From a virus, in IMG/VR virus record IMGVR_UViG_3300009285_002284, positions 1-33,758 of that record: DNA of 33,758 nucleotides. One strand, written 5' to 3'. Below the pieces are notes generated by a model that did no database searches, had not been told where the DNA came from, and saw only the letters and a list, made by a program, of their open reading frames with translations. Position 1 is the first letter of the stretch. Each line of letters starts with the position of its first letter. The position numbers and the translations under genes were made by a program. Positions 7,254-29,034 of this stretch are shown piece by piece.

Positions 7254-7277
7254 AAAAAAAGACACCTTTCGGGTGTC
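7254..7277 (-). terminator. Intrinsic terminator in leader A
   Basis: On the - strand GACACC-CGAAA-GGTGTC is a 6-bp stem followed directly by seven T (7254-7260). It lies between promoter A and its first gene, so it would stop both the fibre-gene message and, unless overridden, the RNA from promoter A itself. Confidence 0.85.
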
Positions 7278-7310
7278 CTCTTTACACTCTTGGCCGCCAA
7301 ATTGTCGGCT
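7254..7310 (-). ncRNA. Leader RNA A: +1 hairpin plus terminator (57 nt)
   Basis: RNA from promoter A would begin at about 7310 with hairpin P1 (7293-7309): stem GCCG/CGGC, 9-base loop ACAATTTGG. A 15-base link (beginning CAAGAG and ending AAAGAG) leads into the terminator. GTGT in the link can pair with ACAC of the terminator 5' arm, a possible but short antiterminator. It is one of five leaders with the same plan and nearly the same length. Confidence 0.65.
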
Positions 7311-7316
7311 ATTGTT

Positions 7317-7345
7317 ATTCTAGTTATTTATAATCTAATTGTCAA
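7317..7345 (-). promoter_or_regulatory. Promoter A (ejection and lysis module)
   Basis: TTGACA (plus-strand TGTCAA 7340-7345), 17-base spacer, TAGAAT (7317-7322). Expected start near 7310. The -35 box overlaps the last codon and stop of the fibre gene. It drives 7241 leftward through the lysis genes. Confidence 0.85.
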
Positions 7346-13299: not shown

Positions 13300-13311
13300 A
13301 ATTTACTCCAT

Positions 13312-13354
13312 AAAAAAAACCGCCTTTGTGAGCTTCTTATTATCACAATGACGG
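13312..13354 (-). terminator. Intrinsic terminator in leader B
   Basis: Twelve-position stem between 13343-13354 and 13320-13331 with one mismatch and one G-U, 11-base loop, then eight T (13312-13319). Its 5' arm includes the four bases that form the 3' arm of hairpin P1, so the two structures cannot form together. Confidence 0.8.
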
Positions 13355-13368
13355 CTAAGTTATCCGCT
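13312..13368 (-). ncRNA. Leader RNA B: +1 hairpin plus overlapping terminator (57 nt)
   Basis: P1 at 13351-13367: stem GCGG/CCGT (one G-U), loop ATAACTTAG. The 3' arm CCGT pairs either with GCGG (P1) or with the terminator 3' arm GGCGG. This is the clearest case of a switch among the five leaders. Confidence 0.65.
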
Positions 13369-13374
13369 AGATTA

Positions 13375-13403
13375 ATAATATATCAAATTGAATTTAGTGT
13401 CAA
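13375..13403 (-). promoter_or_regulatory. Promoter B (tail module)
   Basis: TTGACA (13398-13403 on the plus strand as TGTCAA), 17-base spacer, TATTAT (13375-13380). Expected start near 13368. It overlaps the end of the glycosyltransferase gene and drives the CBM, adaptor, hub and fibre genes. Confidence 0.85.
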
Positions 13404-15848: not shown

Positions 15849-16033
15849 GATGCTTTTCCTGTCTTTCTTAAATTAAATTCTTGTTGGCATATTATAATCT
15901 CATTTACCATTCTTAATTTAACTTCTTCTAAAACAGAAACTATCAATCTTATCTCTTTTACTGAAAGTCCTTCTTCAGTTTTTTCTCTGTAACTAGCATC
16001 TTCTGGATATATTTCAAGTAAATATTTCTTCAT
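15845..16033 (-). CDS. Hypothetical protein, 62 aa
   Basis: GGAGGG four bases before ATG 16031-16033 fixes the start at MKKYLLEIYPEDA rather than the earlier ATG, and this choice gives the same four-base overlap as the rest of the operon. The product is a small helical protein (GLSVKEIRLIVSVLEEVKLR) with no recognisable motif. It may be a regulator or subunit for the adjacent sugar enzymes. Confidence 0.6.
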   Translation of the reverse strand: MKKYLLEIYPEDASYREKTEEGLSVKEIRLIVSVLEEVKLRMVNEIIICQQEFNLRKTGKAS

Positions 16034-16809
16034 TTTTCCCTCCATGCTTTAAACATTGTTGGTATATCAAATTCCTCAGTCAATACACTCTCTTTGATTT
16101 CATCTCCAGTGGCTTTATCTATTAGTTTCATCTGAAGGACTTGGTGCATATTTTTAAATGGTAGAAATTCAACTTTAAATCCAAACTTCCCTAAAATCGG
16201 GTCAATCACCTGCGGAATACTAGGCAACACATGAGATTCCCCTATTATAAAGTCTATATTCTTAGCAAACTTTGCAAAAGACGAACTGATAAAGACTTCA
16301 TATTCTGCACCCTCTATATCTATCTTCATGGCATCAATATGATCTACATTTGTCATTTTCACGATAGAGGCAAAATCAAGAGCTATTACCTGTACTTTGT
16401 TTCGCTCAATATTTTGTCCATAATAGAAAGAATCAGCTAGGTAGCCTTCTCTCTCAGTTGAGAGGTATCTTTTTACTGATCCTGCCCCAACAGCTACGTT
16501 AAAACATTTAATATTATGATAGTTTTTAGTATTATGCATAAAACAGGAAAAAAAGTCAGGATTAGGCTCAAAAGCATATATCTTAGCGTTTGGGTGGTTA
16601 AGTGAAAAGTAAATAGCAGTAGTTCCTACATGGCCTCCTAGATCAAAAACAATCGGGTCTTTTATGTCTTTGATATGATCTGACAGGGATTTATAATAGT
16701 CATTTTTATAGACTTCTACCGCAATAGTATTCATCATCTCATCATCACCGACAAAAGCAAATTCCATCAGTTTACCTTTATGTTTAAAAGTCAGTTTTTT
16801 AACTTTCAT
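16030..16809 (-). CDS. FkbM-family SAM-dependent methyltransferase (second copy), 259 aa
   Basis: Motif I is IVFDLGGHVGTTAIYF (near residue 60), followed by the acidic residue of motif II in KIYAFEPNPDFF, and the family signature IDAMKIDIEGAEYEVF near residue 160. These are the Rossmann-fold landmarks of FkbM proteins, which O-methylate sugars and related small molecules. Together with the next upstream FkbM gene it suggests that a glycan carries two methyl groups or that two acceptors are used. It overlaps both neighbours by four bases. Confidence 0.87.
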   Translation of the reverse strand: MKVKKLTFKHKGKLMEFAFVGDDEMMNTIAVEVYKNDYYKSLSDHIKDIKDPIVFDLGGHVGTTAIYFSLNHPNAKIYAFEPNPDFFSCFMHNTKNYHNIKCFNVAVGAGSVKRYLSTEREGYLADSFYYGQNIERNKVQVIALDFASIVKMTNVDHIDAMKIDIEGAEYEVFISSSFAKFAKNIDFIIGESHVLPSIPQVIDPILGKFGFKVEFLPFKNMHQVLQMKLIDKATGDEIKESVLTEEFDIPTMFKAWREK

Positions 16810-17498
16810 ATTCTTTTTGCTAAAAATAATACTGGATTTTCGGAAATTAATTTAACTTCAAAGCCTCTATCAGCAATCGATGCCTTGAGAATATTTGTAT
16901 TTGAATCATTCCATCCATGAAATTCTACCAACATCATCTTTATTTTATGAGCGACTGCCTCAAAAGAGGAATGGCTAAGAATCTTGGCTTCCTCACCTTC
17001 TACATCAAGTTTCAGGAAATCTACACAGTCAATTTTATATTCGTTAAATATTAAGTCTAAAGTTGTCTTTTCAACTTTCTCCACATCTGTCTCTTTATGT
17101 TCTCTACCATGAACCCTCTCATATTCTTCATTAAATTCCCTTGTCATAGGATTGAGATTGTGCATGGTAGTGTTGTAACAATGGTAGAAATCAGCCTGTC
17201 CTACCTCATTTGAAACTGCCTTTTTTATAAGAGTAACCTTTTCTAACTTGTTAAATTCAACAAGTTTAATAAGTGTTTCAAAATGGTCTGAAGCTGGTTC
17301 TATAGCGTAGATTTTCTTGGAGAATGGATAAGCGTAGTAGGTAAAAAGACCAATATTAGCTCCTACATCCATAATTACTAAATCTTTTTTTCCTTTTAAA
17401 TATGGATTGTAGATTTGTCTGACATAAATCTCTTCAAAAATGGCAGCTACACAATCACTAAACCAATCTCTAAAAAAGATAGCTTGTAATGGTTTCAT
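16806..17498 (-). CDS. FkbM-family SAM-dependent methyltransferase (first copy), 230 aa
   Basis: Motif I VIMDVGANIGLFTYYA, motif II acidic residue in IYAIEPASDHFETL, and the FkbM signature VDFLKLDVEGEEAKIL. The N-terminus (MKPLQAIFFRDWFSDCVA) is helical. Compared with the second copy, the sequence between the motifs is clearly different, so this is not a recent duplication. It is the first gene of the sugar-modification operon and lies 12 bases after the interleaved inverted repeats. No good ribosome site precedes the ATG; the 5' structure may control its translation. Confidence 0.87.
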   Translation of the reverse strand: MKPLQAIFFRDWFSDCVAAIFEEIYVRQIYNPYLKGKKDLVIMDVGANIGLFTYYAYPFSKKIYAIEPASDHFETLIKLVEFNKLEKVTLIKKAVSNEVGQADFYHCYNTTMHNLNPMTREFNEEYERVHGREHKETDVEKVEKTTLDLIFNEYKIDCVDFLKLDVEGEEAKILSHSSFEAVAHKIKMMLVEFHGWNDSNTNILKASIADRGFEVKLISENPVLFLAKRI

Positions 17499-17509
17499 AT
17501 TACAAAATT

Positions 17510-17564
17510 CAGAGTCTCGCCAAGAATGACCAAGAACGAGACTCTGAAGTTTATGGTCATTCTT
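17510..17564 (-). promoter_or_regulatory. Two interleaved perfect 10-bp inverted repeats (pseudoknot or switch) in leader F
   Basis: In - strand order: AAGAATGACC (a), 8 bases, CAGAGTCTCG (b), 5 bases, GGTCATTCTT (a'), 2 bases, CGAGACTCTG (b'). Arms a/a' and b/b' are each perfectly complementary over 10 bp and are interleaved a-b-a'-b', so an RNA would form an H-type pseudoknot or one of two competing hairpins. The first gene starts 12 bases later. There is no U-tract. If RNA starts near 17560, about seven bp of a/a' remain. Confidence 0.8.
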
Positions 17565-17565
17565 T

Positions 17566-17595
17566 TTATTAACTCTATTTTACCAGTTATGTCAA
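17566..17595 (-). promoter_or_regulatory. Promoter F (glycan-modification module)
   Basis: TTGACA (plus-strand TGTCAA 17590-17595) then TAATAA (17566-17571) with an 18-base spacer, or TTAATA with 17. The -35 box overlaps the last two codons and stop of the upstream 227-aa gene. It lacks the +1 hairpin and terminator found in leaders A-E. Confidence 0.7.
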
Positions 17596-18270
17596 TAGAT
17601 CATGATTAGACATTCTACTCACATCATCCGCAACATAAGTTGGTTTCGCCCAAACTGTTATTGCACAACTTCCTGCGATTGAATCTGGAAGTTTAATAGC
17701 GTGATAAGTTGCATCTATAAATGCACCGATAGTGCCTCCATTTATAGGCTGTTGTGTACCATTGTGTGAAAAAGCGATATGACCTACATCTGCTGTTCCG
17801 CCAATCTTAAATGGAAGTGCCAGTTTACCTACTGTCCCTAGTGTTCCACCTCCAATAGTAAGAGTACCGATATCATTGGCAGTAGTCCACTGTTGAGCAG
17901 TAACTGATGTAAGTTCTGAAAAACAGACCGTTCCCGCAATAGTAGCTGCTGTAGTCCCTGGTTTTGTCAAAGTTTCAGTCTGTATTACACCGAATTGATC
18001 CTGTCCAACAATAGTAAGTGTTCCACCACATTTAGTACCAGAACCAGTTGTCCAAATAGCGTTTAAGTTTCTAGGCCAGTCAGCAATCTTGCTTTTAAAT
18101 CCAACTGTAACAGTTGCCGTACCAGTTGGGCCTGAAGAAACTGCTGTTGCAAACCAGTTAGCCGCATAAGATGGATTGACAACAGTCACAACTTCATATC
18201 TATCAATCTCATCTGGAGTAACTAAATTACCGGAAAATCTGATATCCGGCATATAATTTTTTAGTGCCAT
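17587..18270 (-). CDS. Beta-rich virion protein (decoration or head-fibre type), 227 aa
   Basis: Thr/Ala/Gly-rich and almost all beta, for example GPTGTATVTVGFKSK, GTLTIVGQDQFGVIQTE and TIAGTVCFSELTSVTAQ. Composition and position just downstream of the capsid gene suggest a capsid decoration or head-fibre protein. AAAGGGGGTG lies 14 bases before the ATG, and the start is the TAAATTATGG context with the upstream stop in the same frame, so reinitiation is likely. No catalytic motif or known family recognised. Confidence 0.55.
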   Translation of the reverse strand: MALKNYMPDIRFSGNLVTPDEIDRYEVVTVVNPSYAANWFATAVSSGPTGTATVTVGFKSKIADWPRNLNAIWTTGSGTKCGGTLTIVGQDQFGVIQTETLTKPGTTAATIAGTVCFSELTSVTAQQWTTANDIGTLTIGGGTLGTVGKLALPFKIGGTADVGHIAFSHNGTQQPINGGTIGAFIDATYHAIKLPDSIAGSCAITVWAKPTYVADDVSRMSNHDLLT

Positions 18271-18408: not shown

Positions 18409-18753
18409 TTAATCCCCGGGAAGATAAACCTTTCTGCCTAAATATTTCTCTTGTAAAACTTTCCTAATCTTTTGTCCTCTTAAATAAGCTAGATACTGCT
18501 TCCCAAAGTATCTTTCAATTATATTAGGGTTATTACTGTCTACAAACTTACTTCTTAGAAAACAAGCTACAGCATGAACACGCTCATCTAATTCCTCATG
18601 GTATTTTTTAACCTGCTTTTTTTTATAAGCGTTATATTTCTTTATTGAATTAGCGATAACTGCTTTATTGCGTTCAGGAGAAAATCCTTCTTCTCCATCT
18701 TCCACATAAAACAAAGCATAATCCTGTTTCTGATTTTCTGTTATTTCCTTCAT
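18409..18753 (-). CDS. Hypothetical basic helical protein, 114 aa
   Basis: Starts with an acidic segment (YVEDGEEGFSPE), then long basic helices (IKKYNAYKKKQVKKYHEEL, LRGQKIRKVLQEKYLGRK) with one cysteine. It may contact DNA or the capsid interior. It follows the capsid gene after a 117-base structured gap and is coupled to the 43-aa gene. The start ATG directly follows the last hairpin of that gap; no independent ribosome site is seen. Family not recognised. Confidence 0.55.
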   Translation of the reverse strand: MKEITENQKQDYALFYVEDGEEGFSPERNKAVIANSIKKYNAYKKKQVKKYHEELDERVHAVACFLRSKFVDSNNPNIIERYFGKQYLAYLRGQKIRKVLQEKYLGRKVYLPGD

Positions 18754-18860
18754 ACCTAAGGCAACAAGCAGTATTGTCTTAGGTATGTTGCGGTTCGTTA
18801 AGGTATTTAAGATATTTATGTGTTCATATCTTATTTCCTTTCATCGATGACAACCGCAAC
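18754..18860 (-). promoter_or_regulatory. Structured RNA region between capsid gene and next gene
   Basis: Two structures in the 117-base gap. A 9-bp stem GTTGCGGTT/AACCGCAAC (18787-18795 with 18852-18860) encloses a 7-bp hairpin AAGATAT/ATATCTT (18809-18815 with 18826-18832). Next to it a 7-bp stem ACCTAAG/CTTAGGT (18754-18760 with 18778-18784) ends one base before the next ATG. No U-tract follows, so it is more likely to set RNA stability or to restrain translation downstream of the highly expressed capsid gene. Confidence 0.5.
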
Positions 18861-18870
18861 CAAAACATCG

Positions 18871-20884: not shown

Positions 20885-20898
20885 ATATTCCTCCTCTA

Positions 20899-20919
20899 CA
20901 GTTCCTTAAAAGGACTGTT
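20899..20919 (-). promoter_or_regulatory. Hairpin before the scaffold ribosome site
   Basis: Imperfect palindrome with ACAG/CTGT ends and CCTT/AAGG inside, lying between terminator C and the AGAGGAGGA ribosome site. It might expose or hide the start of the scaffold gene. It has no U-tract. Confidence 0.4.
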
Positions 20920-20933
20920 AGAATGTTAATAAT

Positions 20934-20957
20934 AAAAAAACTCGTATTTCTACGAGT
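20934..20957 (-). terminator. Intrinsic terminator in leader C
   Basis: ACTCGTA-GAAA-TACGAGT on the - strand, a perfect 7-bp stem, whose last pair overlaps the first of seven T (20934-20940). Its sequence differs from the GACAC-type stems of leaders A, D and E, but it sits at the same distance from the promoter. Confidence 0.88.
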
Positions 20958-20992
20958 CTTCTAAAAATCGTCTGGTCGCTAAATTATCGACT
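20934..20992 (-). ncRNA. Leader RNA C: +1 hairpin plus terminator (59 nt)
   Basis: P1 at 20975-20991: stem GTCG/CGAC with loop ATAATTTAG. Compared with GCCG/CGGC of leaders A and E both arms have changed together. The 17-base link starts CAGACGA and ends AGAAG; ACGA can pair with TCGT in the terminator 5' arm. Confidence 0.68.
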
Positions 20993-20998
20993 GTCTGA

Positions 20999-21027
20999 AT
21001 ATTAATATATCAAATAATTATTGTCAA
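20999..21027 (-). promoter_or_regulatory. Promoter C (capsid module)
   Basis: TTGACA (TGTCAA 21022-21027 on the plus strand), 17-base spacer, TAATAT (20999-21004); expected start near 20992. It drives scaffold, capsid and three small genes. Confidence 0.88.
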
Positions 21028-21028
21028 C

Positions 21029-21112
21029 TTATAACACAATTGCTTTCCAACCAAAAGTTACTGTTCCCTTAGGAGCAATATTCAAACTCACATTAAAATT
21101 AAGTACCAACAC
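21029..21112 (-). CDS. Short orphan ORF resembling the C-terminus of a virion protein
   Basis: Twenty-seven codons open at GTG 21110-21112 and overlap the end of the 165-aa gene in another frame. The sequence NVSLNIAPKGTVTFGWKAIVL looks like the last strands of a phage beta-sandwich protein, so it may be the remnant of an older, longer gene or a frameshift extension of the 165-aa protein. No ribosome site is seen; it may not be translated on its own. Confidence 0.3.
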   Translation of the reverse strand: MLVLNFNVSLNIAPKGTVTFGWKAIVL

Positions 21113-22929: not shown

Positions 22930-22954
22930 AAAAAAAAGACACCTTTCTTGTGTC
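22930..22954 (-). terminator. Intrinsic terminator in leader D
   Basis: GACAC-AAGAAAG-GTGTC, a 5-bp stem with 7-base loop, then eight T (22930-22937) that touch the ATG of the next gene. Confidence 0.8.
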
Positions 22955-22987
22955 TTCTTGTCACAAATGCCAGCTAATTCGTCTGGA
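22930..22987 (-). ncRNA. Leader RNA D: +1 hairpin plus terminator (58 nt)
   Basis: P1 at 22970-22986: stem CCAG/CTGG, loop ACGAATTAG. All four stem pairs differ from leader A yet complementarity holds. In the link, TTGTG can pair with CACAA, which includes the terminator 5' arm. Confidence 0.65.
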
Positions 22988-22993
22988 TAATTA

Positions 22994-23022
22994 AGTTTAT
23001 ATTATTAAAAAATTCTTGTCAA
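22994..23022 (-). promoter_or_regulatory. Promoter D (repeat-protein module)
   Basis: TTGACA (TGTCAA 23017-23022), 17-base spacer, TAAACT (22994-22999); start expected near 22987. The -10 box is weaker than in A-C and E. The alignment of P1 with +1 supports it. Confidence 0.75.
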
Positions 23023-23025
23023 GTA

Positions 23026-28805: not shown

Positions 28806-29034
28806 TTAATCCTCCTACTTCAATTGATTTTTGATCTGCAATTGATTTATCTGTAATTACTTTCGCAGCCCCTAATTTTACATTCTCATTTCTCGTTGTA
28901 CGCATTATCTCAACTATTACATCAATTGCCTCTTGAGTAAATTGGGAAATATAAGCATAAATAGCTTGTTTAGATGGTATCCCTCCTCCTTTAGGTACGA
29001 GATCGTTTTTAATTGCATCAACTTTTCCTTCCAT
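28618..29034 (-). CDS. terS: Terminase small subunit candidate with overprinted tail, 138 aa
   Basis: The DNA-recognition partner of the large subunit. Residues about 25-70 form the usual core helices (AIYAYISQFTQEAIDVIVEI, VKLGAAKVITDKSIADQK), and KSIEVGGLNGQPIQLNIITG is the strand often following them in small-terminase proteins. Residues 77-138 are read from the 188 bases shared with the large subunit gene; this tail is Ser/Gln/Asn/Asp-rich and probably disordered, as expected of an overprinted sequence. First gene of module E. The ATG is eight bases after the U-tract, with no clear ribosome site. No recognised HTH is visible, so the call rests on helices and position. Confidence 0.72.
   Translation of the reverse strand: MEGKVDAIKNDLVPKGGGIPSKQAIYAYISQFTQEAIDVIVEIMRTTRNENVKLGAAKVITDKSIADQKSIEVGGLNGQPIQLNIITGTGFLPPSIPVNASSEGDTSTGQPQVQDNSLASQGQKDDNSNNGTDQASAS

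Follow-up and report, generated by a model that had tools for sequence, protein, structure and literature searches.

The maturation gene of phage MS2 is expressed only while its leader RNA is kinetically unfolded, an early transient fold giving way to a final fold that closes the start. In the trp-type attenuators of Bacillus subtilis, two leader folds compete, the later one being a terminator-like hairpin before the gene, and rapid sequence evolution of attenuators has been documented (PMC3913778, PMC2965389). The preQ1 class I riboswitches are small H-type pseudoknots, which are coupled to a transcriptional (terminator/antiterminator) or translational (Shine-Dalgarno) platform, and here the bound form favours the terminator (PMC11625349). 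In the gene 32 mRNA of the phages T4, T2 and RB69, a 5' pseudoknot, located 67 nt upstream of the start codon, is bound by the gene product and controls the gene behind it (PMC3014915).

The element described here resembles each of these systems in part. No Rfam family is matched at the gathering threshold (one chance match has E=0.77), and in the open-access literature searched, a phage leader of this kind was not found described. The element is located in the window, which is the whole analysed stretch of 33,758 nucleotides (about 36% GC) from an uncultivated virus record, where its arms occupy an intergenic gap of 88 nt, with a virion gene on one side and an FkbM methyltransferase gene on the other. 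Read along the minus strand, the arms are arranged as a-b-a'-b', and all of them are perfect, with 11 bp for a/a' and 12 bp for b/b'; the arms, order and coordinates of the preliminary description are correct, except that the arms were given as 10 bp. The features of the junction are listed below in the direction of transcription.

17587..18270, minus strand: upstream virion (decoration-like) gene, an ORF with the stop codon TAA at 17589-17587
17595-17590 / 17572-17567, minus strand: candidate sigma70-type promoter TTGACA-17-TTAATA, read by eye
17585-17577, minus strand: alternative extended -10, TGGTAAAAT, read by eye
17568..17575, minus strand: segment e, GAGTTAAT, possible 5' strand of a stem (S1) around arm a
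17564-17554, minus strand: arm a, AAGAATGACCA
17547..17554, minus strand: segment e', ATAAACTT, which pairs with e and overlaps the base of helix b
17548-17537, minus strand: arm b, TTCAGAGTCTCG
17532-17522, minus strand: arm a', TGGTCATTCTT, within the loop of hairpin b:b'
17519-17508, minus strand: arm b', CGAGACTCTGAA
17499..17507, minus strand: TTTTGTAAT, short U-run 3' of b', between b' and the ATG, without Shine-Dalgarno sequence
16806..17498, minus strand: FkbM-type methyltransferase gene, the first after the leader (Pfam PF05050, 3.4e-19)

The loops connecting the arms of the window are 5, 3 and 1 nt long. The upstream virion gene, for which no Pfam or PHROG name was found, is called decoration-like from its gene position, and this location, after the major head protein, is preserved in the relatives. 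The start of the FkbM gene (ATG at 17498-17496) is backed by an N-terminal homology alignment, and the Shine-Dalgarno scan is negative, as had been noted before. A small hairpin predicted at 17484-17506 (TTGTAAT-atgaaacc-ATTACAA) holds this start codon in its loop. From the sequence, the candidate TTGACA-17-TTAATA promoter, which is not among the predictions of the promoter scan of the window, would place the RNA start at or within arm a, and the extended -10 would place it a few bases 5' of arm a. In the relatives that carry the element, too, a good promoter is seen by eye immediately upstream. Further upstream, at 18751-18870, between the head gene and the ORF at 18409-18753, there are the inverted repeats GTTGCGGTT/AACCGCAAC, TAAGATAT/ATATCTTA and CATACCTAAG/CTTAGGTATG, the last of which takes in an ATG.

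The window contains no other interleaved pair whose arms reach 9 bp, and in 200 Markov simulations the expected number of such pairs per window is 0.075 at 9 bp and 0.005 at 10 bp. In the stacking-energy test of the 88-nt gap, none of the 400 dinucleotide shuffles matches the observed value. Both calculations uphold the initial impression that this arrangement is very unlikely to arise by chance.

Relatives were found through the structural genes. In viral contigs, neither the three proteins (FkbM, decoration and head) nor a DNA pattern gave any match; the phage collection was matched only distantly at the protein level and not at all in DNA, and a scan of genome contigs found no relatives. 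Terminase and portal relatives at 51-61% identity were found, in which the gene order head protein, decoration-like protein, FkbM is preserved, and an MCP profile built from six head proteins yielded 52 IMG/VR loci, all of them distant relatives. The junction was read in 39 loci including the window; three of these (L054, L055 and L056) are near-identical, and six junctions were added to the set because they show the pattern, so that the set is not an unbiased sample. Two FkbM-like genes often follow the junction in succession (L035, 12596-13812; window, 16030-17498).

About 25 of the 39 junctions retain interleaved arms, and the arm sequences are unrelated between phages. By eye, these leaders can be sorted into two classes. 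Class T comprises 14 rows (the window, L035, L037, L038, L042, L043, L049, L054, L055, L056, L060, L063, L070 and L080); here b:b' is a strong hairpin having a' as its loop, a is immediately 5' of the hairpin foot, and b:b' is followed in most relatives by a U-run and then the ATG. These U-runs are long in L038, L049, L056, L060 and L080, and short (TTTTG) in the window. Class II comprises 11 rows (L045, L046, L048, L051, L058, L061, L064, L065, L067, L073 and L077); here the strong hairpin is a:a', close 3' of the -10, its loop is b, and b' is directly 3' of the a:a' foot, 0-13 nt before the ATG, with no U-run. In the head-protein tree, 12 of the 14 class T rows are in one group of 17 rows, and class II is scattered. 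A single or nested hairpin is seen in four junctions (L044, L057, L068 and L071), and in the ten others a plain terminator is followed by a promoter, 5-10 nt before the ATG, and a near-leaderless gene. The preliminary description had raised the point that homologous phages might keep only one arm pair: about 25 relatives keep both, with compensatory sequence turnover, and about 14 have a single hairpin, which in ten of them is the plain terminator before a downstream promoter. The self-complementary CTAG recurs in the hairpin loop and the AUG-proximal arm of the class II leaders L073, L048, L051, L064 and L065.

When compared with dinucleotide shuffles, the best interleaved pair has p<=0.01 in 23/32 junctions, and on the coding strand in 29/38 after adding the six junctions selected for the pattern. 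Because the strong hairpin dominates this score, the complementarity of the loop to the flank was also tested with the hairpin fixed. A first version (MFE loop only, short-flank shuffles) gave no signal (Fisher p=0.22); it was replaced because the MFE fold closes part of the loop and flanks of 6-8 nt cannot be dinucleotide-shuffled. In the replacement, which was designed after this negative result, which takes in four inner stem bases and which uses Markov flanks, the complementarity of the loop to the bases abutting the hairpin foot reaches a Fisher value of 4e-10 over 36 junctions. At p<0.05 it is seen in 11 of the 36 junctions and in 3 of 359 other noncoding leaders of the same phages, and the test is conservative, since the control p-values lean high. 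In a whole-locus scan for compact loop-flank complementarity, chance matches dominate at low thresholds. In the four alignable relatives (MAFFT, four sequences only), helix b is 100% paired, and 6 of its 18 pairs show double changes. For the stem e:e' around arm a, the Fisher value over 12 distinct class T leaders is 6e-8, the window alone being weak (p=0.14).

These data bear on the simplest explanation, which is that the hairpin is a plain terminator of the head-gene transcript and that the second arm pair arose incidentally, for instance through palindrome-perfecting template-switch repair. This is in agreement with the five first-inspected relatives, in each of which a hairpin separates the decoration gene from FkbM; in four cases it is a simple terminator before a promoter. 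However, of 30 other strong hairpins in the leaders of these phages only one shows complementarity of loop to flank at p<0.05, and the 359 leaders overall lack it; both helices reappear with arms of unrelated sequence, and class II has no U-run, which makes this explanation unlikely.

The preliminary description had also considered paired operators in the DNA. Of 38 junctions, 31 have the better interleaved pair on the mRNA-sense strand and 4 have it on the opposite strand, an excess that is expected if RNA tolerates G-U pairs, and the mismatches in the high-scoring helices, near-identical leaders included, are 14 G-U versus 3 A-C. The element acts as sense RNA. Two perfect inverted repeats adjoining a promoter would suit paired operators or a protein-recognised cruciform, but the arm sequence is different in every distinct lineage, there is no conserved binding sequence, and interleaved arms are unable to both extrude as full cruciforms. 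Together with the G-U pairs and the better pairing of the sense strand, this makes a DNA-level function the least probable of the explanations considered. Read on the plus strand (17522-17564), the a arms give a hairpin with TTTTTATT behind it, a possible terminator of antisense transcription; this arrangement is not preserved in L063.

The element is a real regulatory RNA, as about two dozen related phages share its layout and site with entirely different letters, and it is most likely an on/off switch for the FkbM gene. Alignment-based discovery would miss such a regulatory RNA, in which the shape persists and every letter changes. The site points to a conserved control point between the virion genes and the accessory sugar-modification genes. 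The two dozen independent sequences with one topology also provide a natural series, suited for tests of co-transcriptional folding, in particular of how interleaved hairpins and pseudoknots control termination and start-codon use.

The arms had been proposed to form either a pseudoknot or two competing hairpins, referred to here as H1 (a:a') and H2 (b:b', in the window followed by TTTTG). An H-type pseudoknot a-b-a'-b' with full arms is unlikely, since by geometry its loops would be too short to span the stems (5/3/1 nt in the window, 0/0/0 nt in L063, 0-3 nt in several relatives). From these connector lengths the full a:a' and b:b' helices would be mutually exclusive on geometric grounds. 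The competing hairpins are supported by the retention of both arm pairs, by the better pairing of the sense strand and by the folding of the growing window transcript, in which H1 is the sole equilibrium fold at 44-58 nt and H2 takes over at 60-62 nt, shortly ahead of the AUG, and is certain from 62 nt on, these being equilibria at each length and not kinetics. In many relatives H1 and H2 differ widely in folding energy; such an inequality suits a switch under kinetic control better than one at equilibrium, and it proves neither. In class T, the loop lengths of e:e' and a:a' would permit another H-type pseudoknot, e-a-e'-a', which looks feasible; this pseudoknot and the terminator would exclude each other, because e' belongs to the base of the terminator hairpin.

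The same connectors bear on a dimerising or trans-acting leader, in which two transcripts would interact, the loop of the first with the flank next to the hairpin of the second, so that control would depend on concentration. The loop is complementary to the flank, yet connectors of 0-3 nt forbid their pairing in cis while the hairpin is intact. Mutually exclusive cis folds account for the same facts more simply, however, and this arrangement is considered very unlikely. Kissing loops between adjacent hairpins were dropped on geometry.

The best explanation, to which we assign a probability of about 0.5, is that of a transcription attenuator, having H1 or the e-a-e'-a' pseudoknot as the antiterminator. 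In this mechanism the 88-nt gap would encode the 5' leader of the FkbM-led operon, a structural RNA switch acting in cis, and H2 with the U-run would be an intrinsic terminator directly before the AUG, where it would block the ribosome too. H1, or in relatives the pseudoknot formed by the small 5' stem e:e' and a:a', would separate the arms of H2, and read-through of the polymerase into the sugar-modification genes would depend on the fold that is present when the U-run is crossed. The signal might be the speed of the polymerase, its pausing, or a factor from phage or host, or there might be none (a fixed partial read-through); the assignment of the ON state to one of the folds is inferred. 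The attenuator is supported by the exclusion of chance, the syntenic junction in the relatives and the U-runs 3' of b' in most class T leaders; on the other side, the U-run of the window is short and its e:e' stem is weak.

Termination is not the common function of all relatives, because class II has no U-run. In relatives without this run the fold competition would act on the start codon, with b' abutting the AUG. Both features of class II, a missing U-run and a b' that touches the AUG, suggest a translational platform. It is possible, though rather doubtful, that the element is a translational device throughout, its structure being the whole 5' UTR up to the AUG, in which b:b' would hide the start, or a folded pseudoknot would present the AUG as in leaderless mRNA. 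This would be in agreement with the FkbM start without Shine-Dalgarno sequence, with the class II leaders in which b' abuts the AUG (0 nt in L046, L048, L051, L065 and L067) and with the near-leaderless genes of the simple-layout relatives, but it leaves the U-runs of class T unexplained.

The distance from the -10 to the first base of arm a is 0-3 nt in several class II relatives; as reasoned by hand, the local transcript is therefore probably without the first bases of this arm. Such trimming would free enough loop for a pseudoknot, and local and read-through transcripts would fold differently. If class II transcripts start some 7 nt after the -10, the trimmed arm a would allow a classical H-type pseudoknot, whose third loop would measure about 4-9 nt (again by hand). 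A broader proposal can be made tentatively: a leader family defined by fold only, with no conserved sequence, in which a pseudoknot interconverts with a start-proximal hairpin, and which is coupled to termination or to the start codon depending on the lineage. Such leaders might tell local-promoter transcripts from read-through transcripts of the head operon, since several class II arms a extend upstream of the expected transcription start.

When compared with the known systems, the attenuator proposed here differs from the trp-type attenuators in that its arms are interleaved and do not share one strand, in that there is no known sensor and in that some relatives have no U-run. Unlike the preQ1-I riboswitches, the phage leader has no conserved ligand-binding nucleotides and no Rfam match; no conserved aptamer-like sequence is found among these leaders, and the phage pseudoknot would oppose the terminator, whereas the bound riboswitch favours it. 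The gene 32 pseudoknot lies far upstream of its start codon, whereas the FkbM-leader structure is located at the start codon and lacks sequence conservation. The succession of an early and a final fold is shared with the MS2 maturation leader, which differs in belonging to an RNA phage, in its long-range cloverleaf and in the presence of a Shine-Dalgarno sequence.

The other leaders of the window are without the interleaved pattern, as first described, and five of them have another common element, for which an origin shared with the junction element was rejected. This second element is found at five promoters on the minus strand (7266-7345, 13300-13399, 20885-21098, 22930-23025 and 28806-28880), and its motif has five matches in the window, none in simulated sequence and none in the relatives. 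It consists of a TTGACA promoter, then a hairpin NNNG-A(T/C)(A/G)A...TTAG-CNNN with a covarying stem of 3-4 bp and a 9-nt loop, and, in its 3' part, a segment complementary to the 5' arm of the intrinsic terminator that precedes the gene, and it looks like a phage-wide conditional terminator.
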